DNA of 36,511 nt from a virus. Numbering within the stretch: position 1 is the stretch's first letter; each line of letters opens with the position of its first letter. Of the stretch, positions 7,042 through 31,069 are shown in pieces. The DNA lies in the IMG/VR virus record IMGVR_UViG_3300048023_000466, positions 1 through 36,511 of that record, one strand, 5' to 3'. A program made the translations under genes and the position numbers. The notes beneath the pieces are model-generated. The model did not search any database. It saw only the letters and a program-made list of their open reading frames with translations, and had not been told where the DNA came from.

Positions 7042-7044
7042 CTG

Positions 7045-8585: not shown

Positions 8586-8627
8586 GACCCCAGTATCGCC
8601 CGGATTATTGACAACTAGCAACGATCA
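8586..8627 (-). promoter_or_regulatory. Early-type promoter/operator, leaderless
   Basis: Minus strand: TTGCTA (8621-8616), 18 bp, GATACT (8597-8592), 6 nt, then the ATG at 8585. The -35 region lies in the conserved element 8607-8627 (TTGACAA, three bases, GCAACGATCA on the plus strand), which matches the elements at 25192 and 31048 with one difference in the core. The upstream Com-like gene stops inside the element. Confidence 0.78.
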
Positions 8628-8780
8628 CGGGCGCGGTTCGTTCACTTTCCGACAGCGCGGGCACAACACTCGGAACGGCGCGTTCACAAGCTCCGCGAGC
8701 AGCTTGCCGCAATCGGTGCAGCGCAACTCGGCGGGCCATGCGGCCTCGCGGTCGTCGCCGTATGGGTCAGGAGACCTCAC
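8625..8780 (-). CDS. Com-like zinc ribbon protein (51 aa)
   Basis: A short gene with a probable GTG start at 8780, overlapping the end of the tail terminator gene by 14 bases, and stopping at TGA 8627-8625. The product has two CxxC pairs: LRCTDCGKLLAEL and VLCPRCRKVNEPR. This matches the small Com family (phage Mu Com and relatives), zinc ribbons of which Mu Com activates translation of the mom DNA-modification gene. Many phages carry Com-like proteins with unknown role, so a link to the DNA-modification operon here is speculative. No ribosome site is visible, so translation probably depends on the upstream gene. Confidence 0.62.
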   Translation of the reverse strand: MRSPDPYGDDREAAWPAELRCTDCGKLLAELVNAPFRVLCPRCRKVNEPRP

Positions 8781-9177
8781 GGGACACGAGGAAGTTGCAG
8801 ACGTGCAGCATCCGGTCTTGATCGTCGCGGTCGAGCGCGAACGGGGACTGAACCGGGTCGGCGAACAAGTACCGGGTCGAGTTGATCGTTTCGTTGTCGA
8901 TTAGGCAGAGCGCAACCCACACGTCGGTGCAGAGCGCCTCGGAGGTGGAGTAGGCCGACGCGCGTGCGACTACTTGCAGGCCGCGCGTCTCGATCGGCGG
9001 TGCCGCGTTGGTTCCGAACACAAGCTCCGGCGCGGTGCCGCCCGTTTCGTACAACGCGACGAGCGTGTCGGGCGTGTCGGGTCGGCGACCGAGGAACAGG
9101 TTCGTGCCGAGGGTGAGGTCTTGCGCCGGGATGGTCGCCGCGGCGAGGTGGGTTCCTATGTCGTCGAGGAAAGCCAT
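8767..9177 (-). CDS. Tail terminator-like / minor structural protein (136 aa)
   Basis: A 136-residue protein (MAFLDDIGTHLAAATIPAQ...) ending LHVCNFLVSREVS. The layout, an N-terminal helix, a TPDTLVALYETGG strand, a PPIETRGLQVVARA segment and a closing strand, matches the small 'tail terminator / minor capsid' proteins encoded between the HK97 gp10-like protein and the tail tube in actinophages. Such proteins cap the tail tube and join it to the head. It shares its start with the stop of the gp10-like gene at 9177, so translation is coupled. Confidence 0.75.
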   Translation of the reverse strand: MAFLDDIGTHLAAATIPAQDLTLGTNLFLGRRPDTPDTLVALYETGGTAPELVFGTNAAPPIETRGLQVVARASAYSTSEALCTDVWVALCLIDNETINSTRYLFADPVQSPFALDRDDQDRMLHVCNFLVSREVS

Positions 9178-9587
9178 TACCGGATCGCTTTCGCCTGCTG
9201 CACCGACCGAGCGATGATCTGTTCGGCGCGCTTGCCGATCTGCCGGGACGGGAACTCGAGGTACTTCGGCCCGCGGCCTTGACCCGGCGCTACCGGCGAC
9301 CCGCCTTTCGACTTCGGCGGGTGCGACAGGGAGAGGTCTTCATGCTGCACGAGCGCGTATGCCGCTGCCGGTCCCCCGTAGCCGATCTCGCCTCGGATGG
9401 TCTTGCCGGTCTCCTTGACGCTGGTCGTCTGCGACCGCGACAGCGTGCCGGTGTCGAACGGGACCAGCTCGTCGGCGCGCGCACCTATCTCAAGCAGAAT
9501 CTGTCCGACACCTAACCTGACGCCTCGCTCGATCGCTCGCCTTGTGCGGCCCGCTTCGTCGTCGAAGTTTGACGTGACGAGACTCAT
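9177..9587 (-). CDS. HK97 gp10-like neck protein (136 aa)
   Basis: A 136-residue protein starting at the ATG at 9587, overlapping the upstream stop by four bases (ATGA). It is basic, with the typical features of the HK97 gp10 family: a long N-terminal helix, then ADELVPFDTGTLSRS, and a YALVQHEDLSLSHP segment near residue 90. In siphoviruses these proteins sit at the head-tail interface. The order connector, head closure, gp10-like and tail terminator seen here (10434 to 8767) is the standard neck module. Confidence 0.85.
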   Translation of the reverse strand: MSLVTSNFDDEAGRTRRAIERGVRLGVGQILLEIGARADELVPFDTGTLSRSQTTSVKETGKTIRGEIGYGGPAAAYALVQHEDLSLSHPPKSKGGSPVAPGQGRGPKYLEFPSRQIGKRAEQIIARSVQQAKAIR

Positions 9588-9949
9588 GACCCGCGTCTGC
9601 CGATGTAGACGACCTGCCCGACCTGCCCGAGCGGGTCGGCGAGCGTTTCGACCGCAAGGATCGGGCGGGTGCCGGACACCGGAGCCGGGAGTGTGATCTG
9701 GTCGCCGGTGTCGACCGCGATTGTGCGGTCCGGGATGAACACTTTGTACTCGACGGTCACGTCGGCGTTCACACCGGCAGGCTGATCGAGGGTGCGCTCG
9801 ATGTAGCAGTCGTAGGTCGTGGCGTCGCCGGTGAAGGTTGCCTCGCCGTAGTTGTTGAGCGTCGACGAGGTGCGCGTGTCGACCGTCTGCGGGGTCATGT
9901 TGACCCGGAGTGCCGTGGCGAACACGTCGGACGAGGCTGCGCCGGTCAT
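9584..9949 (-). CDS. Head-tail connector / head closure protein (121 aa)
   Basis: A 121-residue protein between the adaptor (9946-10434) and the gp10-like protein, overlapping both by four bases. It is beta-rich, with DVTVEYKVFIPDRTIAVDTG, a strand pattern typical of head closure or stopper proteins, and ends VVYIGRRGS. Such proteins seal the portal after packaging and dock the tail. The assignment comes mainly from gene order and size. Confidence 0.72.
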   Translation of the reverse strand: MTGAASSDVFATALRVNMTPQTVDTRTSSTLNNYGEATFTGDATTYDCYIERTLDQPAGVNADVTVEYKVFIPDRTIAVDTGDQITLPAPVSGTRPILAVETLADPLGQVGQVVYIGRRGS

Positions 9950-10434
9950 AGCTCGAGGTCGTTGTCGTCTCCGGCATCGGCCCGCGCCGGGCCTGCGCCG
10001 TAGTCGGTCGTGTTGGCGAACTGCGCGGTGGTGAAGAACGGGTCGACCCGGTCGCTGTTGTCGCGGTCAATATCTTTGTCGGACACCGAGATGCCGCCCG
10101 CGTAGGGGATCGGGACGAGGTTCTCGCGACCGGCGAGCGCCCGAAGTTCCTCGGCCTGCTTCCGAGCGTTGTCGGCCTTCTGGGAAAGGTCGACGCGCAT
10201 GTCGCCGATGGCTTGATTCGCGAGGCGGGAGAACTTCGACGCGATCGCGATCATGACCCGGTACGCGACGGTGTACAGGTCCGTCGTGGCGGTGTCCGAG
10301 CCGGTCACCTGATTATTCGTCCACGCGATCTCTTCATCGCTGACGAGCTGGTCGTTCGTGTCGGTGTCGCCGACAAGGAAACGAACCGAGTCGCGCGCGT
10401 TCGTGGCAGGGTCACCGGAGTACGTCCACGTCAT
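9946..10434 (-). CDS. Head-tail adaptor protein (162 aa)
   Basis: A 162-residue protein opening MTWTYSGDPATNARDSVRFL and containing FLVGDTDTNDQLVSDEEIAW, a hallmark opening of the head-tail adaptor family that binds the portal ring (the 'VGDTD...SDEEI' pattern). Helices follow at residues 55-105. It is the first gene of the neck module, after the capsid terminator. There is no Shine-Dalgarno sequence; TAGTAT sits six bases before the ATG at 10434, so the message is probably leaderless. Confidence 0.88.
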   Translation of the reverse strand: MTWTYSGDPATNARDSVRFLVGDTDTNDQLVSDEEIAWTNNQVTGSDTATTDLYTVAYRVMIAIASKFSRLANQAIGDMRVDLSQKADNARKQAEELRALAGRENLVPIPYAGGISVSDKDIDRDNSDRVDPFFTTAQFANTTDYGAGPARADAGDDNDLEL

Positions 10435-10446
10435 GCGGTCATACTA
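10435..10446 (-). promoter_or_regulatory. Probable leaderless promoter for the neck module
   Basis: Minus strand TAGTAT (10446-10441), 6 nt, ATG at 10434. The -35 region is poor. Placement directly after the capsid terminator supports a new transcript start here. Confidence 0.5.
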
Positions 10447-10484
10447 GATCACACGCTGCCGCGCGTCTGTATGAGAAGACGCAA

Positions 10485-10523
10485 CAGCCCGCCCGGGAAA
10501 GGAGAACAAAACCGGGCGGGCTG
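10485..10523 (-). terminator. Strong hairpin after the major capsid gene
   Basis: A perfect 12-bp stem: CAGCCCGCCCGG (10485-10496) and its complement at 10512-10523, with a 15-nt loop. No U-run follows on the minus strand, which is common in high-GC hosts. It would end or reduce transcription after the capsid gene (stop 10556), giving more capsid than connector message. Confidence 0.8.
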
Positions 10524-10555
10524 CTACGTGTTGGGTGTGGGATCTACCCGCTACG

Positions 10556-11895: not shown

Positions 11896-11898
11896 AGG

Positions 11899-12576: not shown

Positions 12577-12582
12577 TAGGAG

Positions 12583-18882: not shown

Positions 18883-19788
18883 TTATGCGTCCAGAGCGAT
18901 CGACATGAACTCTGCTCGGCGTGTGGGGTCGTCGGCGATGATTCCGCGGAGCGAGTTTGTGGTCATGGTGGCTCCGGGCTTGCCGACACCGCGGCAGCTC
19001 ATGCACTGGTGGTGGGCGTGGATGACGACACCGACGCCTGCTGGCTCGAGGTGGTGGTGCAGGTCGGTCGCAATGTCTTCGGTGAGTCGTTCTTGCACTT
19101 GGAGGCGCTTGGCGTGTGCGTCGACGAGGCGTGCCAGTTTCGACAGGCCGACGACTTTGAGGCCGGGGACGTAGCCGACTGTGGCGGTCCCGGTGAACGG
19201 GAGCATGTGGTGCTCGCAGAGCGACGTGAAGGGAATGTCGGAGAGGACGACGGTGCCGGACACTTCGCCCACGTCGAACTGCACTCCGAGGATCGTTTCA
19301 ATGTCGGTGTGGTAGCCGACGGTCATCTCGGACATGGCCTTGATGACGCGCTTCGGGGTGTCGATTAGACCTTCGCGGGTTGGGTCTTCGCCGATGTGTT
19401 GCAGGATTCGCACGACGGCGTCTGTCGGGTCGCCCGCGTCTCGTTCCCACGGGAACGCGAGCCATGTGTCGACCAGCGTTGCGTCGGGGGCGATATCGGC
19501 TGGCGAGTAGGGCTTGCGGTACAGGGTGTCGCGGTCGTTGGCTTCATAGGCCGAGAGTGTGCGGCCCGTGTCGACAAGGTCGTCTACGACGAGTGTGCGG
19601 TCGTCGATCTCGTCTGGTCGGTCAACGAGGTGCCACCCGGCTCGTTCTGAGGCCATGACGGCGATCGGTGCGCCACCTTGCGGGACGCCGTAGACCTTCT
19701 CGATGTGCTGCGCGTCGGCCCATCTTGCGACGAGGCGGTCGACCTCGAGCGAGATATCGCTCCACGTCAGGTGTTCGACTTCGCTCAT
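18883..19788 (-). CDS. folE: Phosphoribosyltransferase-GTP cyclohydrolase I fusion (301 aa)
   Basis: A two-domain enzyme. Residues about 1-115 form a type-I phosphoribosyltransferase with the PRPP loop LVVDDLVDTGRT (66-77) and a VYGVPQGGAPIAVM strand-loop. Residues about 120-301 are a GTP cyclohydrolase I with all hallmark segments: TSLCEHHMLPFTG, GLSKLARLVDAHAKRLQVQE and HHQCMSCRGV. Zinc ligands Cys191, His194 and Cys262 are present. FolE converts GTP to dihydroneopterin triphosphate, the first step towards queuosine-type bases. The gene follows QueE by one base and is the last of the modification operon. The fused transferase may recycle a purine base, possibly guanine released by DpdA; this is inference. 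Confidence 0.93.
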   Translation of the reverse strand: MSEVEHLTWSDISLEVDRLVARWADAQHIEKVYGVPQGGAPIAVMASERAGWHLVDRPDEIDDRTLVVDDLVDTGRTLSAYEANDRDTLYRKPYSPADIAPDATLVDTWLAFPWERDAGDPTDAVVRILQHIGEDPTREGLIDTPKRVIKAMSEMTVGYHTDIETILGVQFDVGEVSGTVVLSDIPFTSLCEHHMLPFTGTATVGYVPGLKVVGLSKLARLVDAHAKRLQVQERLTEDIATDLHHHLEPAGVGVVIHAHHQCMSCRGVGKPGATMTTNSLRGIIADDPTRRAEFMSIALDA

Positions 19789-19789
19789 G

Positions 19790-20506
19790 TCATCGTCCTC
19801 TTTCGTCGTTCCATATGCGGACGTGCAGTCTGTCGGAGTAGTGGTAGCCGGTTTCTAGCGCATACTGAGCGACGCGGGGTGCATTGACGTTCAGTTCGAG
19901 CTTCGTTCTGCCTTCGGGCATGAGCCAGACCCGGTTGTGTGGCCAGTCGTAGCGTTCGACGAACTGCTCTACCGCTGTCATGTCTTCGTCGGTTGCGATG
20001 ACGAACTTGGCGTCGGCGCGTTCGTGCCATGCTTCCTCGGCGAACGCAGCGTAGGTCTCGTCCCAGTTCTCTTTGACGGTGATGCCTGATCCGGGCAGCT
20101 TCGGCGACACGGAGTAGGTCACGTCGGTCGATGCTCGACTGAGCGGCGGTCGGGTGCCGTTCGTTTCGATGTGAACGTGCGCGTCGACTTGCTCGGCCAG
20201 TTCGGTCACCGCTCTGGCTTGCAGCAGCGGTTCGCCGCCTGAGATGACAAGCTGGTGGGTCGTCGGGTCGAAGCCGAGGTCGACGAGCGCGAGGATGAGC
20301 GCTTCGATGTTGACGGTCGTTTGTTCTTTCGCGCGGTCGTAGGCGACGCCGTTCTTGCCGGTCCAGTCCCACGTGTAGGGCGTGTCGCACCACGAACAGT
20401 CGAGGTTGCAGCCGGAGGTGCGGATGAAGACGCATGGTGTGCCGGTGTAGCGGCCTTCGCCTTGCAGGGTCGGCCCGAACACTTCACTGATTCGCAAGTT
20501 GGTCAT
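19790..20506 (-). CDS. queE: 7-carboxy-7-deazaguanine synthase (238 aa)
   Basis: A radical-SAM enzyme that makes 7-carboxy-7-deazaguanine from 6-carboxytetrahydropterin. The cluster motif SGCNLDCSWC gives Cys33, Cys37 and Cys40 (Cys-x3-Cys-x2-Cys). The N-terminal LRISEVFGPTLQGEG and the SAM-contact segment LVISGGEPLLQ (residues 87-96) are the standard QueE signatures, and the length fits the family. It overlaps QueD by four bases. There is no sign of a QueC domain, so the pathway encoded here stops at the carboxy compound. Confidence 0.95.
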   Translation of the reverse strand: MTNLRISEVFGPTLQGEGRYTGTPCVFIRTSGCNLDCSWCDTPYTWDWTGKNGVAYDRAKEQTTVNIEALILALVDLGFDPTTHQLVISGGEPLLQARAVTELAEQVDAHVHIETNGTRPPLSRASTDVTYSVSPKLPGSGITVKENWDETYAAFAEEAWHERADAKFVIATDEDMTAVEQFVERYDWPHNRVWLMPEGRTKLELNVNAPRVAQYALETGYHYSDRLHVRIWNDERGR

Positions 20507-20931
20507 GTGGCTGTCCAGATGGCCGCGTTGCGTTCATTCTCCCAACACTCGATGCGGATGACCTCGGCTTCTTCGGCGATCGAAGGTTGTAGGTCTTGCA
20601 CAAGGTCCCTCACCCACAACGTCATGCCTTCCATCGTCGGGTCCATGACGCGCAGGTCGATCGCGCCCGCGGCGTGCAGTTCCCGGAAGCGGTCAAGCTC
20701 GGGGTCGTCTGGCGAGATGAGGCAGGTGTGGTCGAACTGCCGTTCGAGCGTCGCTTTCAGTTCTTTGAGGCCTCCGAAGTCGACGACCCATCCGAGGTAG
20801 TCGCGCGGGCCGGTCCATTCGATCTCGACCCATCGGTCGTAGCCGTGCAGGTAGCGGCAGTGTGAGGTTGCGGCCCACTGTCGGTGACAGCATGGGAAGC
20901 CGCCGAGGCGCTTGCGGACGTTCGTGCTCAT
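20503..20931 (-). CDS. queD: QueD-like 6-carboxytetrahydropterin synthase (142 aa)
   Basis: A T-fold enzyme of the QueD / 6-pyruvoyl-tetrahydropterin synthase family. The start is the ATG at 20931, overlapping the upstream stop (ATGA). Residues: first His at CCHRQW (His16), then HCRYLHGYD with Cys25 and His29, but Tyr31 where QueD normally has the third zinc His (HGH). Other family features are WVVDFGGLK (48-56), FDHTCL near 66-71, PTMEG (98-102) with Glu101, and a C-terminal IECWENERNAAIW. The HGY form is, from memory, common in phage QueD-like proteins, and the enzyme may still bind metal with another ligand. It acts between FolE and QueE. Confidence 0.88.
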   Translation of the reverse strand: MSTNVRKRLGGFPCCHRQWAATSHCRYLHGYDRWVEIEWTGPRDYLGWVVDFGGLKELKATLERQFDHTCLISPDDPELDRFRELHAAGAIDLRVMDPTMEGMTLWVRDLVQDLQPSIAEEAEVIRIECWENERNAAIWTAT

Positions 20932-21290
20932 GAGTCCTCCGAGTGGAACGTGAGGGTCGCGCCGACCTCGTCGTCCTCGGTGACCTCGACCGCGACCCAC
21001 GGCGTTGTCGGGTAGGCGTCGAATACGGCGGCGGCGACTTCGCCGGCGAGGTGCTCGCAGGATGAGCGGCCGTGCTCTCGCCGGGTCAGAGGCGGTGAGT
21101 CGTTGACGACGTCGAGCAGGTCGTGGAACTCGATGTCGCGGTCGTCGTGGTTGACCGGTGCGGTGACCCGGTAGTGGAACAGGTGCCGGTGCCGGTCGGA
21201 AAGGTACGCGCGGGTGTCTTTCGCTTCGGGCCAACGATGGAAGCCGATGCTCGCGGTCGAGACGGTGATTCGGCGGTCGGTGACGTTCAC
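20928..21290 (-). CDS. Small T-fold-like protein with His triad (120 aa)
   Basis: A 120-residue protein between DpdA and QueD, starting with GTG at 21290 and overlapping both neighbours by four bases. It appears related to the QueD fold: IGFHRWPEA (His18), DRHRHLFHYRV (His34 and His36, like the HGH zinc pair), DDRDIEFHDL and SSCEHLAGEV (Glu79, like the PTxE segment of QueD). The catalytic Cys of QueD is absent. It therefore keeps the metal triad that the neighbouring QueD has partly lost. Its reaction is unknown; it could be a second pterin-binding subunit or partner of QueD. The family relation is inferred by eye. Confidence 0.6.
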   Translation of the reverse strand: MNVTDRRITVSTASIGFHRWPEAKDTRAYLSDRHRHLFHYRVTAPVNHDDRDIEFHDLLDVVNDSPPLTRREHGRSSCEHLAGEVAAAVFDAYPTTPWVAVEVTEDDEVGATLTFHSEDS

Positions 21291-22207
21291 TGCTCTTGGC
21301 CTTTCATGTAGGTCGGGGTCCCAAAGTAGTCGCTGCGTGTGTCGTGGTAGTGCTTCATGCCGCGCGTCATAAGCGTCATCTCGGTCATCGCGAAGCGGGC
21401 GACATGCTCACGAACCTCGAACGGTGCCGAGAACGGGGTGTGCCACTTCTCGGGAATCTTCCAACCGCGTCGGCCTGCCGCACCGACCTTCATCGACGAG
21501 GGCCAGTTCCACATCGCAAGCCACGACGACGAGTCGGCAGAGTCCCACGGCAGGCCCATCTGCATCTCGTTCGGGGTGATCCCGAGGAAGTGGATGAACA
21601 GGTCCGGGTAGTCGGCGTGACGTTCGTAGGCGGTGGCGAACAATCGGCGGCGAGTGTGCGCGTCGGCTTGAACGAGGTTGCCGAAACACATCCGGTCGTA
21701 GCCTTGCGCCAGTTCGTCGAAGTAGTCCCAACCGTCGTTGAGCGGATGGTAGACCGGGATCGGATTCAGTCCTTCGGCCTCGAGCGTTGCCCGGACGCGC
21801 CGCTTGTTCTCCCGGCCGCCCTGATCTAGTTCGTTGTATCCCCAGAGGCGGTCGCCGAACTCGGAACAGATCTCGCAGTAGACGTCAAACAGCCAGTTGA
21901 AGTTGTCGATCTCCTCCGGTGCGAGCGCGAGCGCGTCGTCCATCGAAACGTCGTGCGCCCGCTTGTGCTGGTTCGTCAGGAAGAAGATGCCGGAGTCGAG
22001 GAACGTGTCGACGCCCGCGTCGAGCGACTCCATGAACTTCTCCCACGGGCGACCCTTTCGACCAAGAGGTCGACCGACCGCAGCGAACTCGTTGACGGCG
22101 AACAGCGTCGGGTATTCCGGGACCGTTGGCTTCTGATCGTTGCCGCCACCTGCGAAGAAGTACTTACACCGGTCGTCCTTGTCCCACTTGCCGTCGGTCT
22201 TCTTCAT
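21287..22207 (-). CDS. dpdA: DpdA-like DNA 7-deazaguanine transglycosylase (306 aa)
   Basis: A relative of tRNA-guanine transglycosylase of the DpdA type, which swaps guanine in DNA for a 7-deazaguanine base. The start is set at the ATG at 22207 (four-base overlap with the ParB-like gene). TGT-like features are FLDSG at residues 69-73 (Asp71, general acid/base position), HFLGI (206-210), and GLPWDSADSSSWL (218-230), where Asp222 or Asp225 would be the nucleophile. It is shorter than tRNA TGT and lacks the Cys3-His zinc site, as is common in phage DpdA. The FolE-QueD-QueE neighbours make DNA as the target much more likely than tRNA. Confidence 0.88.
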   Translation of the reverse strand: MKKTDGKWDKDDRCKYFFAGGGNDQKPTVPEYPTLFAVNEFAAVGRPLGRKGRPWEKFMESLDAGVDTFLDSGIFFLTNQHKRAHDVSMDDALALAPEEIDNFNWLFDVYCEICSEFGDRLWGYNELDQGGRENKRRVRATLEAEGLNPIPVYHPLNDGWDYFDELAQGYDRMCFGNLVQADAHTRRRLFATAYERHADYPDLFIHFLGITPNEMQMGLPWDSADSSSWLAMWNWPSSMKVGAAGRRGWKIPEKWHTPFSAPFEVREHVARFAMTEMTLMTRGMKHYHDTRSDYFGTPTYMKGQEQ

Positions 22208-22953
22208 GCGTTGATCTCGCGCGCTTCTGAGATGCCTGCCGCGTTCCACTTCGACAGGACGTGCCCGGCGAGGTACCGGTCGGCCTGCACCATGACGAGC
22301 GACTGACCTTGCATCGCTGCGGTGATTGCCACATACGGGGCCGGATATGGGACGAAGATGCGGTCGTTGGCGAGGTGCTCATACCAGAGCGACCACTCGG
22401 TCATCACGTCTGCGACAACGAGGACGTGCGGGCCGAGCAGCCATGTGCTCCCCTTCTCCGGGATGAAGTCCGGTTCGGCGATGCTTACGTCTTCAAGACC
22501 TTCGAGCGTGCGGGTCTCGTTGATCGCGTCCTCGCCCAACCCTGGCATGTCGAGGTCTTGCAGCAGTAGGTCAAGGTCGTCGCCGTCCCAACCGGTGCCG
22601 AGCAGACCTTCCTCCGACGTTGCGATGTTGCCGAGTAGCTCGGCGAGGAAAGCGTCGTCGTAGCTTGCAAGGTCCGAGGTGCGGTTGTCGGCGATCAAGA
22701 TGCGGCGGGCGGTGTCGTCGTCTACGTCGACCCAGTGGACCGGCACGCGGTCGAGGCCGCAATGCATCGCAGCTTGTAACCGGTGGTTTCCGGCGAGCAC
22801 GTTCCCGGTGGACACCTGCGCGACGAGCGTGCCGTACCAGCCGTTCGCCTCGATCGACTGAATGATCGCGCCGATGTCACCCTGCCGCGGGTTGTCGGGG
22901 TGGACGTTCAACGCCGTCAGCGGCGTCTTTCGGATGCCTGGCTTCTGTTCCAT
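22204..22953 (-). CDS. ParB-like nuclease-domain protein (249 aa), partner of DpdA
   Basis: A 249-residue protein with an N-terminal ParB/sulfiredoxin-type domain: VHPDNPRQGD (residues 17-26), NGWYGTLVAQVSTGNVLAGN and GNHRLQAAMHCG (55-66), VDVDDDTARRILIADNRT. It is not a partition ParB, as no ParA or helix-turn-helix is present. ParB-like proteins next to DpdA occur in bacterial dpd clusters (DpdB) and in mycobacteriophages with this modification, where they are thought to help DpdA act on DNA. It is the first gene of the operon. An in-frame GTG lies three bases upstream. C-terminal residues about 130-249 are specific to this protein and unassigned. Confidence 0.85.
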   Translation of the reverse strand: MEQKPGIRKTPLTALNVHPDNPRQGDIGAIIQSIEANGWYGTLVAQVSTGNVLAGNHRLQAAMHCGLDRVPVHWVDVDDDTARRILIADNRTSDLASYDDAFLAELLGNIATSEEGLLGTGWDGDDLDLLLQDLDMPGLGEDAINETRTLEGLEDVSIAEPDFIPEKGSTWLLGPHVLVVADVMTEWSLWYEHLANDRIFVPYPAPYVAITAAMQGQSLVMVQADRYLAGHVLSKWNAAGISEAREINA

Positions 22954-22986
22954 CACTCGTCAAGCTAACAGCGGCATGTACCGTTC

Positions 22987-24726: not shown

Positions 24727-24745
24727 GGTGAGTGTCCTTTCGGGA

Positions 24746-24913
24746 CTAGAGGTGCCCGTTGAGGGCGATGTGAAGTTCGGCTGCGGCCTGCTCAAGACTG
24801 GCGGCAGGGTTGTCGTATGCGTCGAGCAGTTCTTGTGCTGCATCGACGACGAAGTCCTCGAACATCTCCGGGTCGGCGACGATCATGCGGGCGGTGTTGA
24901 GCGGAGCGTTCAT
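24746..24913 (-). CDS. Small helical protein (55 aa)
   Basis: A short gene starting at the ATG at 24913, overlapping the upstream stop (TGATG), and ending at TAG 24748-24746. The product opens MNAPLNTARMIVADPEMFED and is a mostly helical, acidic protein. There is no recognised family. The frame is open across the only gap in this chain and the overlap is typical of this genome, so it is likely real. Confidence 0.6.
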   Translation of the reverse strand: MNAPLNTARMIVADPEMFEDFVVDAAQELLDAYDNPAASLEQAAAELHIALNGHL

Positions 24914-25170
24914 CAGCAGCCCGCTCCCTCGTGGCTGACCGCCACCTCGAGGAAGTCGCGCGCGGACTCGAGCGTCTTGCGGACGTGCTTGAGGTTGGCG
25001 ACGTTGCCGTAGTTGATCTGGCCGACGCCGTTCAGGTCGGCTTCGGAGTTGAGGGCGTGCGCGATGAGCAGGTGTTGCAGGTCTTCGACCAGCTCGCCGA
25101 CGGCGATGTGCTCGGCGCGGTAGGACTCGGTGAAGCCGAGGCGGTTGGTGGGGCGGGTGCTGTTGGTCAT
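24913..25170 (-). CDS. Early gene of unknown function (85 aa), leaderless
   Basis: The first gene of a leftward early transcript. The ATG at 25170 lies six bases after a GATAAT box with no Shine-Dalgarno sequence. The product opens MTNSTRPTNRLGFTESYRAE and is helical (AVGELVEDLQHLLIAHAL; LKHVRKTLESARDFLEV), probably a small coiled-coil protein. The family is not recognised. It is expressed from the same promoter element as the genes at 8585 and 30994, so it is probably an early host-takeover or regulatory gene. Confidence 0.72.
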   Translation of the reverse strand: MTNSTRPTNRLGFTESYRAEHIAVGELVEDLQHLLIAHALNSEADLNGVGQINYGNVANLKHVRKTLESARDFLEVAVSHEGAGC

Positions 25171-25213
25171 GACTTCATTATCATGCCGACGATTGACAAC
25201 TTGCAACGATCAA
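25171..25213 (-). promoter_or_regulatory. Early promoter/operator, leaderless
   Basis: Minus strand TTGCAA (25206-25201), 18 bp, GATAAT (25182-25177), 6 nt, ATG at 25170. The 22-bp element at 25192-25213 is identical to that at 31048-31069. Confidence 0.85.
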
Positions 25214-25229
25214 CCGTGACGAATGTTTG

Positions 25230-25325: not shown

Positions 25326-25334
25326 GTTCTGATA

Positions 25335-25730
25335 CTAGCGGACCTGAACGGAGAGCGACTCGCTGGTCGTTTCCGCGAACTCGTCCGGGTCGAGGCCACG
25401 CTCGCGCAGTGCGCCGACTCGCCAGTAACTAATCCCGGCGCAGTCGCGCAGCGCGCGGGTGACGACCTGCCACGACGGCTCGACCTCTCCGGTGTCCGGG
25501 TCGATCACCCGTTCGTCGAGGGCACGCGACACGACATGCTTCGTTGCCTCTTCGTGGTCCCACTTGCGGTTGCGGCGCTTCGACACCTCGACGAGTCCGA
25601 AGGTGGTTTCGGTCTTGCGACCCGGCGCTGCAGCGTGCACGGCTTCAACCAGTTCGCGCTCACGATCACGAAGCTCGGCGATGCGGGCGCGCGTGTCGAG
25701 CAGGTCGGCGACAAGCTCATCAAACGTCAT
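25335..25730 (-). CDS. Coiled-coil phage protein (131 aa)
   Basis: The ATG at 25730 has GGAGG seven bases upstream. Residues 1-35 form a coiled coil (TFDELVADLLDTRARIAELR...). Then come ETTFGLVEVSKRRNRKWDHE and DPDTGEVEPSWQVVTRAL. I have a sense of similar proteins in actinophage early regions, with a basic central patch suited to DNA binding, but no named family. It is coupled to the upstream gene. Confidence 0.7.
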   Translation of the reverse strand: MTFDELVADLLDTRARIAELRDRERELVEAVHAAAPGRKTETTFGLVEVSKRRNRKWDHEEATKHVVSRALDERVIDPDTGEVEPSWQVVTRALRDCAGISYWRVGALRERGLDPDEFAETTSESLSVQVR

Positions 25731-26122
25731 CACACCGCCTCCGTCCCGTAGCGCATCACGAACAAGGTCGGGTCCCAGATCGGTTCGTCCTCGTCCCCGT
25801 AGAGCACGCTGACGCCACCGGCCGAGTGCAGCACGAGGCAGGGGACGCCGTCCCGGTGCGGCAGCGGCGGGGCGATCAGAGTTCCCGCTTCACGCTCGCA
25901 GGCTGCGAACAACAGCGAGGCGATGAACACACCGCCCGGTATGTCGCTCATGCTGATCCCGAAGTCGGACGTGTGGCCGATCGTGTCGGCGATCATGGCG
26001 AGCACGTCGCGCGGCGTCAGCAGGGAGAACAGCAGCGTGTAAGACCACACGTCGTGTTCGCCGATGTGCTCGACGCGGATGGCCGCGGTGTCGTCGGCGA
26101 CCGGTTCCCAAGAGACGGTCAT
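25730..26122 (-). CDS. Unknown protein (130 aa)
   Basis: It starts at the ATG at 26122, overlapping the ArdA-like gene's stop by four bases (ATGA). The product (MTVSWEPVADDTAAIRVEHI...) has alternating strands and a helical middle section (TLLFSLLTPRDVLAMIADTI), and ends YGTEAV. There is no metal or membrane motif. Its position directly after ArdA suggests a related antidefence or accessory role, by context only. Confidence 0.65.
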   Translation of the reverse strand: MTVSWEPVADDTAAIRVEHIGEHDVWSYTLLFSLLTPRDVLAMIADTIGHTSDFGISMSDIPGGVFIASLLFAACEREAGTLIAPPLPHRDGVPCLVLHSAGGVSVLYGDEDEPIWDPTLFVMRYGTEAV

Positions 26123-26469
26123 TCTGGGTCTGCCTCTGTCCGGGTCATGATGACCGGACCGACCTTCTTCGGCTCTTCGTCGGTCTGAAAGACCCACACG
26201 CCGGTCGGGTGGCCGATGGACAAGAAGCAGCCGCCGAGGCCGAAGACCCATTCGATGTAGGCGTCGGCGTTGAAGAACGGGACGAGCATGTCCGGCAGGC
26301 CGTGCTCCCACGTCGCCCGGTCGTAGGCGAACCGGGTGAGGTTGGGCCACTCGCCGAGGTACGCGTCCTCGAACGATTCGGCTGCGACCTCGAGGCTCTG
26401 CTCGTTGATGCGCGCCCACGCTTCGAGCGCGGGCCAGTCGTGCGACGCGATGCGGTCGAGTGCTTCCAT
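26119..26469 (-). CDS. ardA: ArdA-type antirestriction protein, short (116 aa)
   Basis: A small acidic protein similar to the C-terminal part of ArdA, the DNA mimic that blocks type I restriction enzymes. Matching features are SFEDAYLGEWPNLTRFAYD (ArdA 'F-x-D-x-Y-x-G-E-x' segment), then LPDMLVPFFNADAYIEWVFG (counterpart of 'L-x-x-Y-I-D-x-E-x-Y'), and GVWVFQTD near the end. Net charge is strongly negative, as needed for DNA mimicry. At 116 residues it is shorter than typical ArdA (about 165), lacking the N-terminal domain. It overlaps both neighbours by a few bases. It fits with the DNA-modification operon as a second antirestriction layer. Confidence 0.78.
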   Translation of the reverse strand: MEALDRIASHDWPALEAWARINEQSLEVAAESFEDAYLGEWPNLTRFAYDRATWEHGLPDMLVPFFNADAYIEWVFGLGGCFLSIGHPTGVWVFQTDEEPKKVGPVIMTRTEADPE

Positions 26470-26717: not shown

Positions 26718-27058
26718 GCTGCGACCTGCTTCTCGGTGAGGGCGGCGGCGATCGCTTCGGCAATCTCGATCGGGAGGAACAGGTGCTCGTGTGCGGTGAG
26801 GTTGACGACGACGTAGCGGGAGCCGTCGTCGCTCGTCTTCACCTCGGCGGTGAGCTGGTCCTCGTCCTCGACCCCACCGGTGCAGACGTGGACGTAGCGG
26901 GAGAAGAAGCGGCCGCCGTCGTAGCTGGTCGTCCGCTCGGCGACGAGCTTCGACGAGTAGGCCGTGGTCTCGTACTCGGTGCCGCTGTCGAGCGTGTCGG
27001 TCGAGGTGTCGAGCCGGACGCCGGTGGCGTCGTGTCGGATCGTATGGATGTTGGTCAT
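26714..27058 (-). CDS. Unknown beta-rich protein (114 aa)
   Basis: A 114-residue protein with a good ribosome site (GGAGG) before its ATG at 27058. It is rich in Thr, Asp and Glu, with GGRFFSRYVHVCTGGVEDE and GSRYVVVNLTAHEHLFLPIE, mainly strands. It is the first gene of the cluster that includes ArdA. No family is recognised. Its upstream neighbour is separated by a hairpin, so this cluster either starts here or depends on read-through. Confidence 0.68.
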   Translation of the reverse strand: MTNIHTIRHDATGVRLDTSTDTLDSGTEYETTAYSSKLVAERTTSYDGGRFFSRYVHVCTGGVEDEDQLTAEVKTSDDGSRYVVVNLTAHEHLFLPIEIAEAIAAALTEKQVAA

Positions 27059-27105
27059 GTTGCCCTCCCTGGGCGGTAGGTGGTCGGACCGATAAGTCCG
27101 GGAGG

Positions 27106-27133
27106 GCGACCGGCCGGGGGGAGCCGGTCGCCA
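27106..27133 (-). terminator. Hairpin after the 70-aa early gene
   Basis: A perfect 10-bp stem, GGCGACCGGC (27106-27115) with its complement at 27124-27133, and an 8-nt loop. It lies 12 bases after the stop at 27145 on the minus strand. A weaker 5-bp hairpin (CGGAC/GTCCG) follows. Confidence 0.72.
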
Positions 27134-27144
27134 ACCCGCACCGA

Positions 27145-27357
27145 TCAGCCGAAGCGTCGGTCGCGAGCCGCGTCAAGCATCTCGCGCACCTCTGGGGTCC
27201 GGGTCGCAGCGACCGCCCATTCGGGCACAAGCGCAGTCAGGCAGTCCGCTGGACTCTGCGGACGCACCGAAGCGTTCGCGAGATATGGATGATCGGCTGG
27301 GCGACCGGCTGCTTTCCATGCGGCTCGGTCAGCGAGGAACTGGTCGATGTCGGACAT
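27145..27357 (-). CDS. Early gene of unknown function (70 aa)
   Basis: The ATG at 27357 has GAGGAGG eight bases upstream and sits in a transcript that begins near 27399, giving a leader of about 40 nt. The frame is open upstream to another ATG at 27399. The product (MSDIDQFLADRAAWKAAGRP...) is a small, Ala/Arg/Asp-rich helical protein ending DAARDRRFG. The family is unknown. It has its own promoter with the early operator and its own terminator, a one-gene unit. Confidence 0.68.
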   Translation of the reverse strand: MSDIDQFLADRAAWKAAGRPADHPYLANASVRPQSPADCLTALVPEWAVAATRTPEVREMLDAARDRRFG

Positions 27358-27399
27358 GGGCGGGACCTCCTCGGGTCGCGGTAGGGGCGGTGTTGCCAT

Positions 27400-27441
27400 G
27401 CGCCGATCATCGGCCATGTGTTGACAATGGTCAACGATCAA
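27400..27441 (-). promoter_or_regulatory. Early promoter/operator with perfect dyad
   Basis: Minus strand TTGACC (27434-27429), 17 bp, GATGAT (27411-27406), 6 nt, ATG at 27399. The operator here has a perfect dyad, GTTGAC, four bases, GTCAAC (27420-27435), the most symmetric of the group, followed by the shared CAACGATCA part. Confidence 0.75.
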
Positions 27442-27592
27442 CGTGCAACCGCTTCGGTTCTCCGAACCTTTCCCTGCGGGTCGGCGAATCTCGCCATGCC
27501 TCGCGGCACTCGTGGCAGCAGAAGAACAACGCGCGCGATGGGTCGCCGCACCACTTGCATTCGTAGCGGGGTTCACTCTCGGCGGCGTGCAC
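27431..27592 (-). CDS. Small zinc-finger protein (53 aa)
   Basis: A short gene with a GTG start at 27592 (a stop codon lies four codons upstream, so no earlier start is possible) and TGA at 27433-27431, inside the next promoter. The product contains YECKWCGDPSRALFFCCHEC then REAW, two cysteine pairs with a His, matching the 'C-x2-C ... F-C-x-x-x-C-R-x-x-W' finger common in small phage proteins. It probably binds nucleic acid or protein. It overlaps the 28-aa gene by 20 bases. Confidence 0.58.
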   Translation of the reverse strand: MHAAESEPRYECKWCGDPSRALFFCCHECREAWRDSPTRRERFGEPKRLHVDR

Positions 27593-27659
27593 CTTCTGAG
27601 ACTAGCAACATGAAGCCGAGCAGCAGGGCGAGCGCGAGATAAGCCTGCGGGGTCGTCAT
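27573..27659 (-). CDS. Tiny membrane peptide (28 aa)
   Basis: It starts at the ATG at 27659 in a four-base overlap with the upstream RHH gene stop and ends at TGA 27575-27573. The product opens MTTPQAYLALALLLGFMLLV, one hydrophobic helix, then a basic tail (SEGARRRE). Such size makes it uncertain; the ATGA coupling and membrane-like composition are the only support. Confidence 0.42.
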   Translation of the reverse strand: MTTPQAYLALALLLGFMLLVSEGARRRE

Positions 27660-27811
27660 ACGAACTCATCGCCAACCTTGACGAGGTTGTAGATCGCGTA
27701 GCGCAGAGCCTTCGACCGGCTCATCGAATGACGTTCGGCGAACTGGTCGAGCGCCTCGATGATCGCGACGTCCATCTTCGCGCTGATCCATTCTTTGTCG
27801 GAGCCGCTCAT
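27656..27811 (-). CDS. Ribbon-helix-helix regulator (51 aa)
   Basis: A 51-residue protein (ATG at 27811, four-base overlap with the upstream gene) with an Arc/CopG-like layout: a strand WISAKMDVAI, helix IEALDQFAERH, turn SMSRSKAL and helix RYAIYNLVKV. The S-R-S-K-A turn is the hallmark of RHH DNA-binding proteins, which bind dyads as dimers. It is co-transcribed with the winged-helix protein from the divergent control region and is one candidate for the factor that reads the shared early operator. Confidence 0.85.
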   Translation of the reverse strand: MSGSDKEWISAKMDVAIIEALDQFAERHSMSRSKALRYAIYNLVKVGDEFV

Positions 27812-28254
27812 GACGCCACCTCCGGTCGAAGCAGATGCAGATACGGGTTCGCCGGTCGACCGGTCCGTTCGATCATGGTCTCGCCGAGCGCGGTGATCTT
27901 GTGAACGCGGCCGGTGTTGCCGTTCGTCGTCTCGCGCGTGGCGATGTTGCCGAAGCGGTCGAGCGCGTAGGTGACGAACCCGTCTTCGTGCAGCTCGCCG
28001 AGGCGGGTCGCGGTCTGGTTCGGTGACCGGTCGAGAAGCTCGGCGATCTGTCGAGCGGTCATCGGGCCGCGGTACGACAGCGCGACGAGGACTTTCATCC
28101 GCTGCGATCCCTTTCGGGGTGTCGTGCCTGCCTTCCTCGAGGTGGCCGGGTGCGATGCTCCCGTCTTGCCTTCGCGCTCGAGTCGAGCAGTCATGTCGGT
28201 GGTGCTGATGAGGCCGGAGCCGCAGCACGTTGGGCATTGAATCATGTGTTCCAT
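27808..28254 (-). CDS. Winged-helix regulator with N-terminal zinc motif (148 aa)
   Basis: A 148-residue protein starting at the ATG at 28254, seven bases after a TACGCT box (leaderless). Residues 4-15 hold MIQCPTCCGSGLI, a Cys-x2-Cys pair of the zinc-knuckle type. Residues about 53-125 form a winged helix: MKVLVALSYRGPMTARQIAE, LLDRSPNQTATRLGELHEDG (recognition helix) and a wing ending RVHKITALGETMIERTG. It resembles MarR-like phage regulators. It is divergent from the recombination operon across a 60-bp region with overlapping promoters, as a repressor would be. Confidence 0.82.
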   Translation of the reverse strand: MEHMIQCPTCCGSGLISTTDMTARLEREGKTGASHPATSRKAGTTPRKGSQRMKVLVALSYRGPMTARQIAELLDRSPNQTATRLGELHEDGFVTYALDRFGNIATRETTNGNTGRVHKITALGETMIERTGRPANPYLHLLRPEVAS

Positions 28255-28314
28255 GAGGGCGAGCGTACTGACGGGTGTTGGTCTTGACAATGATCCCGGC
28301 GTACCCTCCCGCGC
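28255..28314. promoter_or_regulatory. Divergent promoter pair with shared operator
   Basis: Rightward: TTGGTC (28278-28283), 18 bp, TACCCT (28302-28307), 7 nt, ATG at 28315. Leftward: TTGTCA (28290-28285), 17 bp, TACGCT (28267-28262), 7 nt, ATG at 28254. The two -35 boxes touch, forming the imperfect dyad TTGGTCTTGACAA (28278-28290) that resembles the early operator. Confidence 0.72.
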
Positions 28315-28338
28315 ATGGCTCAACCGAAGGAGAGCGCC

Positions 28339-28776
28339 ATGACCGAACAGACCAGACTTGCGAAGCCGTTTCGTGCCTCGCTCATCAAGAAGAACCCGAC
28401 CGGGTACGGCGACTACGTCCCGCACTCGGCCTACGTGGAGCGGATGCTGCACCACGGCGGGTACGACTTCGAGATCGTCGAGATTATCCGCGGCGAGTTT
28501 CAGGACAAGTCGAAGCAGACCGCGGTCGGCGTCGTCGGATGCCTCGCCCGTTTGACCGCGACCGTCGACGGGAAGGTCCGCACGGTCGTCGAGGTCGGCG
28601 ACTGCGAACTCCCGTCCAACTGGCCTCACGACGGAGCGCGACTCAAGGACGCAGCCTCGGACGCGTTCAAGCGTTGCTGCATGCGCGGGTTCGGTCTCGG
28701 CCTGCACCTCTACTGCGGCGACAGCTACGCGCTGTACGACGCGCTCGCGCAGCGCGACAAGACCGCAGCCGAGTAG
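28339..28776 (+). CDS. Rad52-like single-strand annealing protein (145 aa)
   Basis: The start is set at the ATG at 28339 because AAGGAG lies six bases upstream; an in-frame ATG at 28315 coincides with the predicted transcript start and would give a 153-residue form. The product has the Rad52/22-type signature: IKKNPTGYGDYVPHSAYVER in the N-terminal third and DGARLKDAASDAFKRCC then GFGLGLHLY near the end (the 'KDAxSDAxKRAxxxxGxGxYLY' pattern). Such proteins anneal single strands for recombination-dependent replication. It is the first gene of the rightward operon. Confidence 0.88.
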   Translation: MTEQTRLAKPFRASLIKKNPTGYGDYVPHSAYVERMLHHGGYDFEIVEIIRGEFQDKSKQTAVGVVGCLARLTATVDGKVRTVVEVGDCELPSNWPHDGARLKDAASDAFKRCCMRGFGLGLHLYCGDSYALYDALAQRDKTAAE

Positions 28777-29294
28777 TGGCAGGCGTCGACCATCCCTTCG
28801 CCATCGTCCCGTGCTTGATGCTTCGCGAGGTCCGAGCGACTAGCGTTGTGGTCTACGCGGTGCTCGCCGAGCACGCGAACGCCGATCAAGAATGTTGGCC
28901 GTCAATCGGGAGGATTGCAGACCGCGCCAACGTCACACCGAGCACGGTTCGGGCGGCGGTGAAAGAACTCGAGGCGAAGGGATGGCTGACCGTCCGGGGG
29001 CGAGTGACAGAAGACGGGCGACAGACCTCAAACTTGTTCAAGGTCCGGCGCGTCCGGCACTCCGATGTGACCCTGCAAGAACTTACAGGGTCCCCCTCTA
29101 AGAAACGAAAGGGTCCCGGTCCGAAAAGTGACAGGGGAACTAGACCTAAAGAACAAGACCCATTGAAGAAGGCTTCGCCGAAGTATCGGACGGCAGCCGA
29201 AACGAGGGAGATGCTTGATGACCTCAACACCGACGACGCGGTCGACGATCTGGGCGATCGCGTTCGCAGCGCTCGCGACGAGCTGCGCGGCTGA
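28776..29294 (+). CDS. Helix-turn-helix replication-type protein (172 aa)
   Basis: It starts with GTG at 28776, sharing one base with the upstream stop (TAGTG). Residues 14-85 form a winged helix-turn-helix of the replication initiator type: SVVVYAVLAEHANADQECWP, SIGRIADRANVTPSTVRAAV, KELEAKGWLTVRGR. The C-terminal half is basic and disordered, then helical (AETREMLDDLN). Proteins of this shape next to an annealing protein often act as phage replication initiators. No polymerase or helicase is encoded, so it may recruit host factors. The last 80 bases overlap the next gene. Confidence 0.8.
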   Translation: MAGVDHPFAIVPCLMLREVRATSVVVYAVLAEHANADQECWPSIGRIADRANVTPSTVRAAVKELEAKGWLTVRGRVTEDGRQTSNLFKVRRVRHSDVTLQELTGSPSKKRKGPGPKSDRGTRPKEQDPLKKASPKYRTAAETREMLDDLNTDDAVDDLGDRVRSARDELRG

Positions 29295-29868
29295 CGACCC
29301 GCTCGTCCAACCGACCACGACTACAATCGAACCCGAGGGCGTGAACGTCGGGTTCGCCGATCCTGCTACTGCGGGACCGGGTCACGCGGGTTCGATCCCC
29401 GCCACGTCCACCACCACCACGACCACCACGACGACCGTGCCGCCGACCACGACCTCGAGCGCGCCGCCGACGACCACGACCGCCGCTCCGGCACCGCGAG
29501 CGACCAACGATGTACCGGCTCCGATTCTGGACGCGGTACAGAGTTTGTGGCCCGAGGACGAATGGGACCGGGCGCTCTCGGTTGCGTTCTGCGAATCGAA
29601 CTACCGGCTCGATGCAGCCAACCCGACCTCGTCCGCGCGTGGAGTGTTCCAACTGCTCGCACCCTGGACCCGCGACCCTGGCTCGGGCCGCACCGTATGG
29701 GGATGGGACTACACCGACGACGGCGAGAAGCTGTCCGCCGCTGCAGGACTTGGCATCGCGCAAGAGGACGCTCGGACGGGTCTGGCCAACATCACCGTCG
29801 CGCATCGCATCTGGCAGTCCGAAGGCTGGGTCCCGTGGGCGGCGAGTCAACTGTGTTGGGCCGAGTGA
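29218..29868 (+). CDS. Exported lytic transglycosylase-like protein (216 aa)
   Basis: The start is the ATG at 29218 with GGGAG seven bases upstream. Residues 1-25 resemble a lipoprotein signal (STIWAIAFAALATSCAADD, possible lipid Cys near 24). Residues about 60-100 are a Thr/Pro linker. Residues about 105-215 are an SLT/lysozyme-like domain: ALSVAFCESNYRLDAANPTS, ARGVFQLLAPW, where Glu of CES is the likely catalytic residue. It may open peptidoglycan or be an early exclusion or lysis factor. It overlaps the preceding gene by 77 bases, unusual here. A tRNA-like sequence (29337-29413) encodes part of the linker. Confidence 0.82.
   Translation: MTSTPTTRSTIWAIAFAALATSCAADDPLVQPTTTTIEPEGVNVGFADPATAGPGHAGSIPATSTTTTTTTTTVPPTTTSSAPPTTTTAAPAPRATNDVPAPILDAVQSLWPEDEWDRALSVAFCESNYRLDAANPTSSARGVFQLLAPWTRDPGSGRTVWGWDYTDDGEKLSAAAGLGIAQEDARTGLANITVAHRIWQSEGWVPWAASQLCWAE
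29337..29413 (+). other. tRNA-like sequence inside the transglycosylase gene
   Basis: The segment has a full acceptor stem (GGGCGTG with CACGTCC, seven pairs, one G-U), a perfect T arm (GCGGG-TTCGATC-CCCGC, 29386-29402) and an encoded A-CCA end. The D arm is poor and the anticodon arm is non-standard (five pairs, TCCTG/CGGGA, but a six-base loop). It reads as a decayed or captured tRNA, or the remnant of an attachment site. Confidence 0.6.
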
Positions 29869-30209
29869 TGAAGCGCTCCGGCCCGATCCAACGCAAGACG
29901 CCACTCAACCGAACCTCAAAGAAGACCGCGAAACGGGACCGCGCTCGAGCGAAGTTCAGGGACGAACAACTCGCCGAGCGACCTTCCTGCGAAGCGCGCG
30001 AAACGATCTGGACCACCGACCCTACGTGGGACGGGTGCACCTACTGGGCGACAGACCTGCACGAGCCGCTAACTCGGGCGCGTGGCGGCAGCGTGCTAGA
30101 CGAATCGAATACGATTGCCACATGCCGCTCATGCCACCGTTGGATTCACGACCACCCGAAGAAGGCGACGGCGACTGGACTGCTACGAACGGCAGACGCT
30201 GGAGCCTGA
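29868..30209 (+). CDS. HNH endonuclease (113 aa)
   Basis: It starts at the ATG at 29868, overlapping the upstream stop (TGATG). The N-terminus is basic (MKRSGPIQRKTPLNRTSKKT). The HNH core is DLHEPLTRARGGSVLDESNT followed by IATCRSCHRWIHDHP: the His of LHEP, the Asn of ESNT and the final His pair, with the zinc Cys pair CRSC. Short HNH proteins assist packaging or DNA processing, and often lie near terminase; here the gene lies in the early rightward operon beside a RusA-like resolvase, so DNA processing during replication is more likely. Confidence 0.88.
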   Translation: MKRSGPIQRKTPLNRTSKKTAKRDRARAKFRDEQLAERPSCEARETIWTTDPTWDGCTYWATDLHEPLTRARGGSVLDESNTIATCRSCHRWIHDHPKKATATGLLRTADAGA

Positions 30210-30559
30210 CCCACTACGACGACATTCTGACCGTCAACAAGGAACGCTCGGTCCACTGGTCGACCCGTTCGTCGGTCGTGAAGGCATGGCGCGAGGCCTA
30301 CGCGTGGCTCGCCATGTCGTCGAAGCTCCCGACGAACGGGTCGGTCGGCCCTTGCCACATCGACGCGGTTCCCTTGACCGCTGGTCGGCGGCGGCAGGAT
30401 GTGGGCGCGTGCCTGCCAGTCGTGAAAGCGGCGATCGATGGCCTCGTCGATGCTGGCGTGTGGCCCGACGACACACCCGCGCATGTCTTGTCGGTCCGGT
30501 TCTGGCCGCAGCAGCTAGGCGCTGACTCGGGTCTGCGGCTGGTGATCTCGGAGGACTGA
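30122..30559 (+). CDS. RusA-like Holliday junction resolvase (145 aa)
   Basis: The ATG at 30122 is the most upstream plausible start; it overlaps the HNH gene by 88 bases. Residues about 28-60 show HYDDILTVNKERSVHWSTRS, the usual RusA-like opening (N-x-R ... HW). The core is TAGRRRQDVGACLPVVKAAI, then DGLVDAGVWPDDTP: Asp of RRQD and the DD pair are the metal ligands of the family. RusA resolvases cut branched DNA before packaging. It is the last gene of the rightward operon and is followed by a terminator. Confidence 0.86.
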   Translation: MPLMPPLDSRPPEEGDGDWTATNGRRWSLTHYDDILTVNKERSVHWSTRSSVVKAWREAYAWLAMSSKLPTNGSVGPCHIDAVPLTAGRRRQDVGACLPVVKAAIDGLVDAGVWPDDTPAHVLSVRFWPQQLGADSGLRLVISED

Positions 30560-30562
30560 AAA

Positions 30563-30599
30563 CGACAACCGCCCCGACCGTCTGGCCGGGGCGGTGTCG
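30563..30599. terminator. Bidirectional terminator between convergent operons
   Basis: A 9-bp stem, ACCGCCCCG (30568-30576) with its complement at 30587-30595, extended by CGAC/GTCG outer arms with a one-base bulge; 10-nt loop. It lies four bases after the resolvase stop and 14 before the end of the leftward gene. Confidence 0.82.
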
Positions 30600-30613
30600 T
30601 CGATGCGAGTCGA

Positions 30614-30994
30614 TCAGGCGACGAACACGCCGTCCTCGACCGGCCAGGTGTAGCCGTTGCCGGTCCAGACGGTACGACCCTGACGACGTGCCTTGTCGGC
30701 GTACTCGGCGGACATGGCCCGGTCGTAGGCGTCTTCGACGCTGACGTACATGCCGACCATCCGGGCGGGACGACGGTGGAGGGGCAGGTCGGTCCAGTTG
30801 GGGCCGAGGACGATCGGGTTCGCCTTGTCCCATTCCATCTGGGCGCGGACCTTGCCGACCATGGTGGCGGTGACGTAGTCGTCGGTGAACATCGCGACGA
30901 CTTCGGCGTCGGTCTGACCGGCGATGATGAACTGCTCGACGAGGTGGCGGTAGTTGTTGCGGATGCGGACGGTCGGGCGGGTCGTGGTCTTCAT
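30614..30994 (-). CDS. Early gene of unknown function (126 aa)
   Basis: The start is set at the ATG at 30994 because AAGGAG lies six bases upstream. An in-frame ATG at 31027 lies six bases after the -10 box and would give a 137-residue leaderless form. The same double-start layout occurs at 28315/28339. The product (MKTTTRPTVRIRNNYRHLVE...) has a helical N-terminal part (QTDAEVVAMFTDDYVTATMV) with a helix-turn-helix feel, then LPLHRRPARMVGMYVSVEDA. It is possibly DNA-binding, but no family is recognised. Confidence 0.72.
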   Translation of the reverse strand: MKTTTRPTVRIRNNYRHLVEQFIIAGQTDAEVVAMFTDDYVTATMVGKVRAQMEWDKANPIVLGPNWTDLPLHRRPARMVGMYVSVEDAYDRAMSAEYADKARRQGRTVWTGNGYTWPVEDGVFVA

Positions 30995-31027
30995 GGCGAT
31001 CTCCTTGCGGTTTGTGGTTGCTGCCAT

Positions 31028-31069
31028 GTCTTTAGTATCAGCCGTACATTGACAACTTGCAACGATCAA
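31028..31069 (-). promoter_or_regulatory. Early promoter/operator
   Basis: Minus strand TTGCAA (31062-31057), 17 bp, GATACT (31039-31034), 6 nt, ATG at 31027. The element 31048-31069 is identical over 22 bp to that at 25192-25213. The metallophosphoesterase stop codon lies at its outer edge. Confidence 0.85.

Follow-up and report, generated by a model that had tools for sequence, protein, structure and literature searches.

A repeated operator-like element at predicted leaderless promoters of accessory genes in an uncultivated actinobacterial virus

Introduction

In mycobacteriophage BPs, the repressor gp33 binds to five regions across the genome and regulates four promoters; at PR the operator lies between the -35 and -10 hexamers and is composed of a strong and a weak half site (PMC4557955). 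According to our comparison, these dispersed operators are the closest described system to the one considered here, a short repeated element in the IMG/VR virus record IMGVR_UViG_3300048023_000466. The whole record, a stretch of 36.5 kb (36,511 nt) with a GC content of 65%, was analysed and is called the window in the following. It belongs to an uncultivated actinobacterial virus, a tailed phage in which terminase, portal, capsid, tail, holin and endolysin genes were recognised, almost all of them on the minus strand. On this coding strand the element reads TTGATCGTTGnnnnTTGTCAA, and it stands before four unlinked genes. We consider the elements very likely to be binding sites for one of the phage's own regulators, the best candidate being a ribbon-helix-helix (RHH) protein, which would act on leaderless SigA-type promoters including its own.

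Four Elements and a Fifth Core Site

The four copies of the 21-bp element are found 28-29 nt upstream of the ATG codons at 8585, 25170, 27399 and 31027, all on the minus strand: copy 1 at 8608-8628 (GTGATCGTTGCTAGTTGTCAA), copy 2 at 25193-25213 (TTGATCGTTGCAAGTTGTCAA), copy 3 at 27421-27441 (TTGATCGTTGACCATTGTCAA) and copy 4 at 31049-31069 (TTGATCGTTGCAAGTTGTCAA again), the last of which overlaps the stop codon of the upstream exonuclease gene. Sixteen of the 21 positions are invariant across the four copies, and the two 22-bp stretches of 25192-25213 and 31048-31069 do not differ at any base; no such conservation is seen between the element and the -10 box. Shuffles contain the exact pattern 0.05 times, against four occurrences in the window, and with up to three mismatches allowed none of 100 shuffles reached five matches. 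An unfiltered all-against-all repeat search was dominated by coding repeats.

Each copy is followed by a predicted -10-like hexamer, GATACT (8592-8597), GATAAT (25177-25182), GATGAT (27406-27411) and GATACT (31034-31039), the last base of which is exactly 6 nt before the ATG. The predicted -35-like hexamers TTGCTA, TTGCAA, TTGACC and TTGCAA leave spacers of 17-18 bp. Given this spacing, the transcript is predicted to start at or near the A of the ATG, and thus to be leaderless. A near-identical operator-like sequence is present at several unlinked promoters of one phage, where it overlaps or lies between the predicted -35 and -10 hexamers. The positions of the four elements, the identical 22 bp, the 6-nt distance and the spacers had all been given in a first-pass annotation of the window, and they were reproduced here.

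The core of the element, TTGWCAA, is 7 bp long and is its own reverse complement except for the central base. It occurs at exactly five places in the window, all of which are at promoters. The first-pass annotation had described a set of four sites and suggested a motif search for further copies. The four copies are real, and the exact 21-bp pattern indeed occurs only four times in the window, but the set was incomplete: a search for the core finds a fifth box at 28284-28290, in a divergent promoter region between a Rad52-like gene and the operon of the candidate regulators, where TTGTCA-17 bp-TACGCT is read leftwards. When this divergent box is counted twice, there are six cases in which TTGWCAA is combined with a -10 box at a distance of 6-7 nt from an ATG reading frame, against a shuffle mean of 0.013 and a maximum of 1; TTGWCAA ranks first here among 420 7-mers of the same composition, every other of which reaches at most three. 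It is also first of 515 same-composition 7-mers for position in the promoter zone, 24-40 nt before ATG reading frames; since the sets were chosen after data inspection and the contigs are related, this and the other 7-mer ranks given here are descriptive only.

Same Layout, Different Spellings in Sibling Phages

A search of deposited phages revealed no close relative, the best capsid match being one of about 48%, in Arthrobacter phages. IMG/VR contains siblings, mostly partial contigs, whose major capsid proteins are 87-93% identical to that of the window; they include two 34-kb contigs (L037+L038 and L039+L040). The exact element of the window is found in none of these siblings, and nucleotide homology between the window and the siblings is broken at the elements. 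Elsewhere in IMG/VR, the exact motif was met in two other contigs with a GC content of 39-47%, where it does not stand at comparable promoters; these were taken as chance occurrences.

In spite of this divergence, the core is kept. Among the siblings TTGWCAA ranks first of 980 same-composition 7-mers, with 40 strand hits from 43 sites in the promoter zone, which comprises about 9% of the sequence. At 27 non-redundant sites (about 25 convincing, two doubtful), the distance from the -10 box to the ATG is 6-7 nt except in both doubtful calls. TTGWCAA boxes are found at a distance of 26-31 or 36-37 nt upstream of the ATG, 10 bp apart where they are doubled. The inner box is too close to the -10 box to serve as a -35 hexamer, while the outer one may coincide with it; thus, an operator explains the boxes better than a sigma-factor element does. 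The relatives L048-L067 share an exonuclease with 86-89% identity and have a different early region without an RHH gene; TTGWCAA is not enriched at their promoters (3 zone hits from 19 sites, rank 187 of 1042).

The sequence around the core is particular to each phage. At the positions of the element, L043 has CTTGACAACTATTGTCAA...GTTGAATGRGGGCATG twice, L025 has three sites of the TTGACAAnnnTTGWCAA...CATACT type, L041 and L021 have TTGACTTGCGG (or GTGACTTGCGG)...GTTGTCAACTTGTGCCTATAATC twice and L029 has three copies of its own version. Over 34 positions, the clear families show 53-94% identity among those elements of a single phage that precede different genes, whereas elements before the same gene in different phages have a mean identity of 45%, near the 41% of unrelated pairs. 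This pattern of one element per phage is seen for the genes designated below as G1 and B and for the slot adjoining the gene at 25335-25733, but not in L037 and L040. The siblings very likely use the same layout in different spellings to control interchangeable small genes. The first-pass proposal of a conserved promoter/operator with leaderless starts, placing unlinked genes under one regulator, is strengthened by these comparisons, in which the architecture and the TTGWCAA core persist and the rest differs.

Candidate Regulators

Which protein would bind to the element? Leftward from the divergent promoter runs an operon on the minus strand, the first gene of which (27808-28254) encodes a protein of 148 aa with a zinc-finger-like N terminus and a winged helix (HTH_24 above the cut-off). 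The operon also contains the gene for an RHH protein of 51 aa (27656-27811). The Rad52-like gene (28315-28776, plus strand) is read rightward from the same region. The regulator's own operon would thus carry a site whether the RHH or the winged-helix protein is the regulator, and the resulting loop is probably autoregulatory.

The RHH protein matches the Pfam domain RHH_1 (PF01402) with 21.1 bits against a cut-off of 20.5, and six of six RHH proteins match phrog_876, a transcriptional repressor family. An RHH gene is present in all eight operator-bearing contigs that span the exonuclease-rad52 region, its product being 38-57% identical to that of the window, and the box is located upstream of the RHH-containing operon in the window, L037, L040, L072, L079 and L080. 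Relatives lacking the promoter signal gave no RHH match. A scan of IMG/VR with an RHH profile matched only a sibling already in the set, and a PDB search for RHH relatives returned nothing usable.

Alternatively, the same regulon might be governed by the zinc-finger/winged-helix protein, with the RHH protein acting elsewhere. Its gene is the first one behind the divergent box, its winged-helix match exceeds the cut-off and a protein of the same layout precedes the RHH protein in the siblings. Yet its putative recognition helix differs widely between the window, L079 and L037/L040 (SPNQTATRLGELHED, GNVPRIAARRLSDLKQ and TTRTETARRWVRTLREE) while TTGWCAA is kept, and L072/L080 have the helix as in L037/L040 together with a different RHH protein and a different box, GTTGATAAC, a comparison based on one promoter region. 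We regard this assignment as rather unlikely. An AlphaFold2 model of the winged-helix protein had a mean predicted local distance difference test score of 49. From few phages and indirect evidence of this kind, the RHH protein is favoured as the most likely regulator.

Most Genes Behind the Element Occupy Variable Slots

The genes behind the element, mostly encoding 70-150 aa and belonging to no family, are placed in slots between core genes, a feature missed in the first-pass annotation. G1 (7365-8585, minus strand, 406 aa, phrog_2319 of unknown function) is an accessory gene between the head-tail connector and major tail protein genes. L038, L041 and L093 likewise have G1 in its slot (7309-8640), and L020 has a different gene there; L015 and L039/L042/L045, which lack G1, retain only about 40 nt at this place. 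Like a moron, G1 thus has a promoter of its own (as predicted), lies between core genes and is lacking in close relatives; a terminator of its own, another moron feature, was not found, as no terminator-like site passed a scan of 7000-9000. The gene filling this tail-module slot in L020 has a homologue with 82% identity in the early region of L069, behind the same promoter. A further slot, at 12580/12593, is empty in the window and filled in L015, L016, L020 and L041.

G3 (24913-25170, minus strand, 85 aa, no family) occupies a slot with a different gene in each sibling examined. In L026 this slot holds a homologue (82% identical in amino acids) of G4 (30614-31027, minus strand, 137 aa, no family), adjoining a homologue of the gene at 25335-25733, whereas in the window G4 is at 31 kb. 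Gene B (27145-27399, minus strand, 84 aa, no family) is more constant, being 75-76% conserved in siblings behind differing operators. The region of 27046-30555, which includes gene B, the HTH_36 winged-helix gene at 28845-29294 and their neighbours, is inverted and rearranged relative to L037 and L040.

Among ten sibling genes behind the element, PHROGs gave one weak match only, to a family of unknown function, and PADLOC found no match among the regulated genes, so that no sign of a counter-defence role was seen here. In seven of seven detected cases, the leaderless ATG is followed 8-17 codons on by an in-frame ATG led by a Shine-Dalgarno sequence. They are located at 27399, 28315 and 31027 in the window and at sites in L020, L037, L040 and L069; in gene B the second ATG is 14 codons after the first. 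The in-frame second ATGs suggest dual starts.

This mobility of genes raises another explanation, in which there is no operator and strong SigA promoters resemble one another through the spread of moron-like cassettes, with their promoters, between slots. It would accommodate the occupation by these genes of slots that are empty or otherwise filled in siblings, as well as the recurrence of the L020 gene with its promoter in L069. It would not account for the fact that conservation is highest in the 21-bp element rather than in the -10 box or the spacer, nor for the inner TTGWCAA, with its closeness to the -10 box. Moreover, the box is present at core genes too (B and rad52), and different genes of one phage share an element while one gene has different elements in different phages. 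Spread without an operator is therefore improbable, slightly more so than control by the winged-helix protein. As judged from the sequences, the putative regulated set is one of moron-like accessory genes under a common switch, plus the more conserved B and rad52.

Proposed Mechanism

An outline of the proposed process is as follows: SigA-type RNA polymerase would use the -35-like hexamer and the -10 box located 6-7 nt upstream of the start codon to produce a leaderless transcript. The phage regulator, most likely the RHH protein, would bind to the palindromic TTGWCAA core and touch the DNA a second time over TTGATCGTTG, and would thereby block polymerase at the -35 hexamer and spacer. Its targets would be mostly small accessory genes in variable slots, together with the Rad52-like gene and its own operon. 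In such an autoregulatory loop, a burst of presumably early expression after genome entry would be followed by shut-off as the regulator builds up.

Several observations count against this model. The fifth box lacks the TTGATCGTTG part of the element, and the winged-helix gene shares the operon with the RHH gene. The association of the RHH gene with the box follows lineage and hence is not independent evidence. L037 and L040 have heterogeneous sites despite identical RHH proteins, and the similarity among the sites of one phage might equally have arisen by spread of promoter-gene cassettes. An AlphaFold2 monomer model of the RHH protein (6 sequences) showed helices only, the N-terminal strand not being formed. 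Weighing these points, we hold control by the RHH protein to be the better-founded reading, with moderate confidence. That the elements are instead host-regulator sites exploited by the phage, which could explain why TTGWCAA is retained though the siblings vary elsewhere, is highly improbable: across 198 genomes from the order to which the sole, uncertain host candidate belongs, the 21-mer (up to two mismatches) is no commoner than a reversed-pattern control, and the relatives with the 86-89% identical exonuclease show no enrichment. This candidate comes from a scan of genome contigs, in which one contig of an Acidimicrobiales metagenome-assembled genome had a capsid protein 75% identical, weak evidence that Acidimicrobiales may be the host.

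An RHH-controlled set of this kind would provide a testable regulon for a group of phages among which no cultured relative was found in this analysis. It would connect a single regulator with a series of small genes that are not recognisable otherwise and that shift between fixed slots yet keep the same promoter type. Should the RHH protein prove to be the regulator, the siblings, with the same core, different surroundings and RHH proteins 38-57% identical to that of the window, form a natural set for following how RHH protein and operator change together. More speculatively, the operator may be a lineage-specific tag for plug-in accessory genes moving between fixed head, tail and early slots: genes would join one RHH regulon by carrying or acquiring the resident operator-promoter, the sequence of which shifts by lineage with the regulator. 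We put this forward tentatively. If it is true, the genes perhaps serve host takeover or counter-defence, and the motif could pick candidate takeover genes in phages without a cultured relative.

Other Features of the Window

The region of 18883-22249 contains 7-deazaguanine pathway genes, encoding GTP cyclohydrolase I (3.9e-65), a radical SAM protein (QueE-like), a 6-pyruvoyl tetrahydropterin synthase (QueD-like) and a queuine tRNA-ribosyltransferase-like protein (phrog_887), which suggest that the phage DNA is modified. Adjoining them is a gene for a ParB-like protein at 22204-22956 (phrog_723, 4e-36). A tRNA-Arg gene (anticodon TCG) is located at 26385-26459 on the plus strand, opposite to its neighbours.

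Comparison with Known Systems

The window resembles BPs in having dispersed sites of one phage regulator (here a candidate), a palindromic half site with a variable partner and a divergent promoter at the repressor locus (PMC4557955). The two differ in that BPs is temperate with gp33 as its immunity repressor, whereas the candidate here is an RHH protein and no integrase or resolvase was found in six records, possibly fragments, which thus give no indication of temperate growth with integration. An immunity-repressor reading is lowered accordingly by this lack. In addition, the BPs core is CGACATATGTCG, whereas that of the window is TTGWCAA and its predicted starts are consistently leaderless.

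In the Cluster A phages (L5/Bxb1), as in the siblings, each phage has its own variant of the repeated site, and divergence follows the repressor (PMC6550527). Their stoperators, which are 13 bp long and asymmetric, number up to about 30 in a genome, and many of them are away from promoters (PMC6550527), whereas the window has five sites, all at promoters, and thus does not show the L5-type arrangement. The start-associated sequences of Cluster K are likewise repeated just before the starts of unlinked non-structural genes (PMC3203893), and the first-pass annotation had likened the element to them. This likeness does not extend to structure: theirs is a 13-mer with a Shine-Dalgarno core 3-7 bp before the start (PMC3203893), whereas the element here is 28-29 nt away, upstream of an intervening -10 box and without a leader.

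Leaderless SigA promoters have also been predicted in the actinophages of Cluster O, one of them being TGTCAA-17 bp-TAGAAT, and one serves an odd gene in the structural operon, as in the window; the 17-bp palindrome of these phages (>30 copies) is not tied to the leaderless promoters and is unrelated in sequence to the element (PMC4351075). The RHH protein Omega of pSM19035 recognises contiguous 7-bp repeats overlapping promoters, 7-10 repeats of WATCACW (PMC9499535), and three 7-bp units starting with TTG can be made out in the window element. Such a heptad reading fits the window and was rejected as a general one because the siblings space their boxes by 10 bp.

A virus-specific shared upstream sequence marking small accessory genes of unknown function is known from the early genes of archaeal viruses, where archaeal promoters are used and anti-defence genes are marked (PMC11065993), in contrast to the genes without a PADLOC match in the window. 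Compared with all of these systems, what is new here is the combination of a consistent leaderless layout, an RHH candidate, the TTGWCAA core and a set of slot-filling genes.

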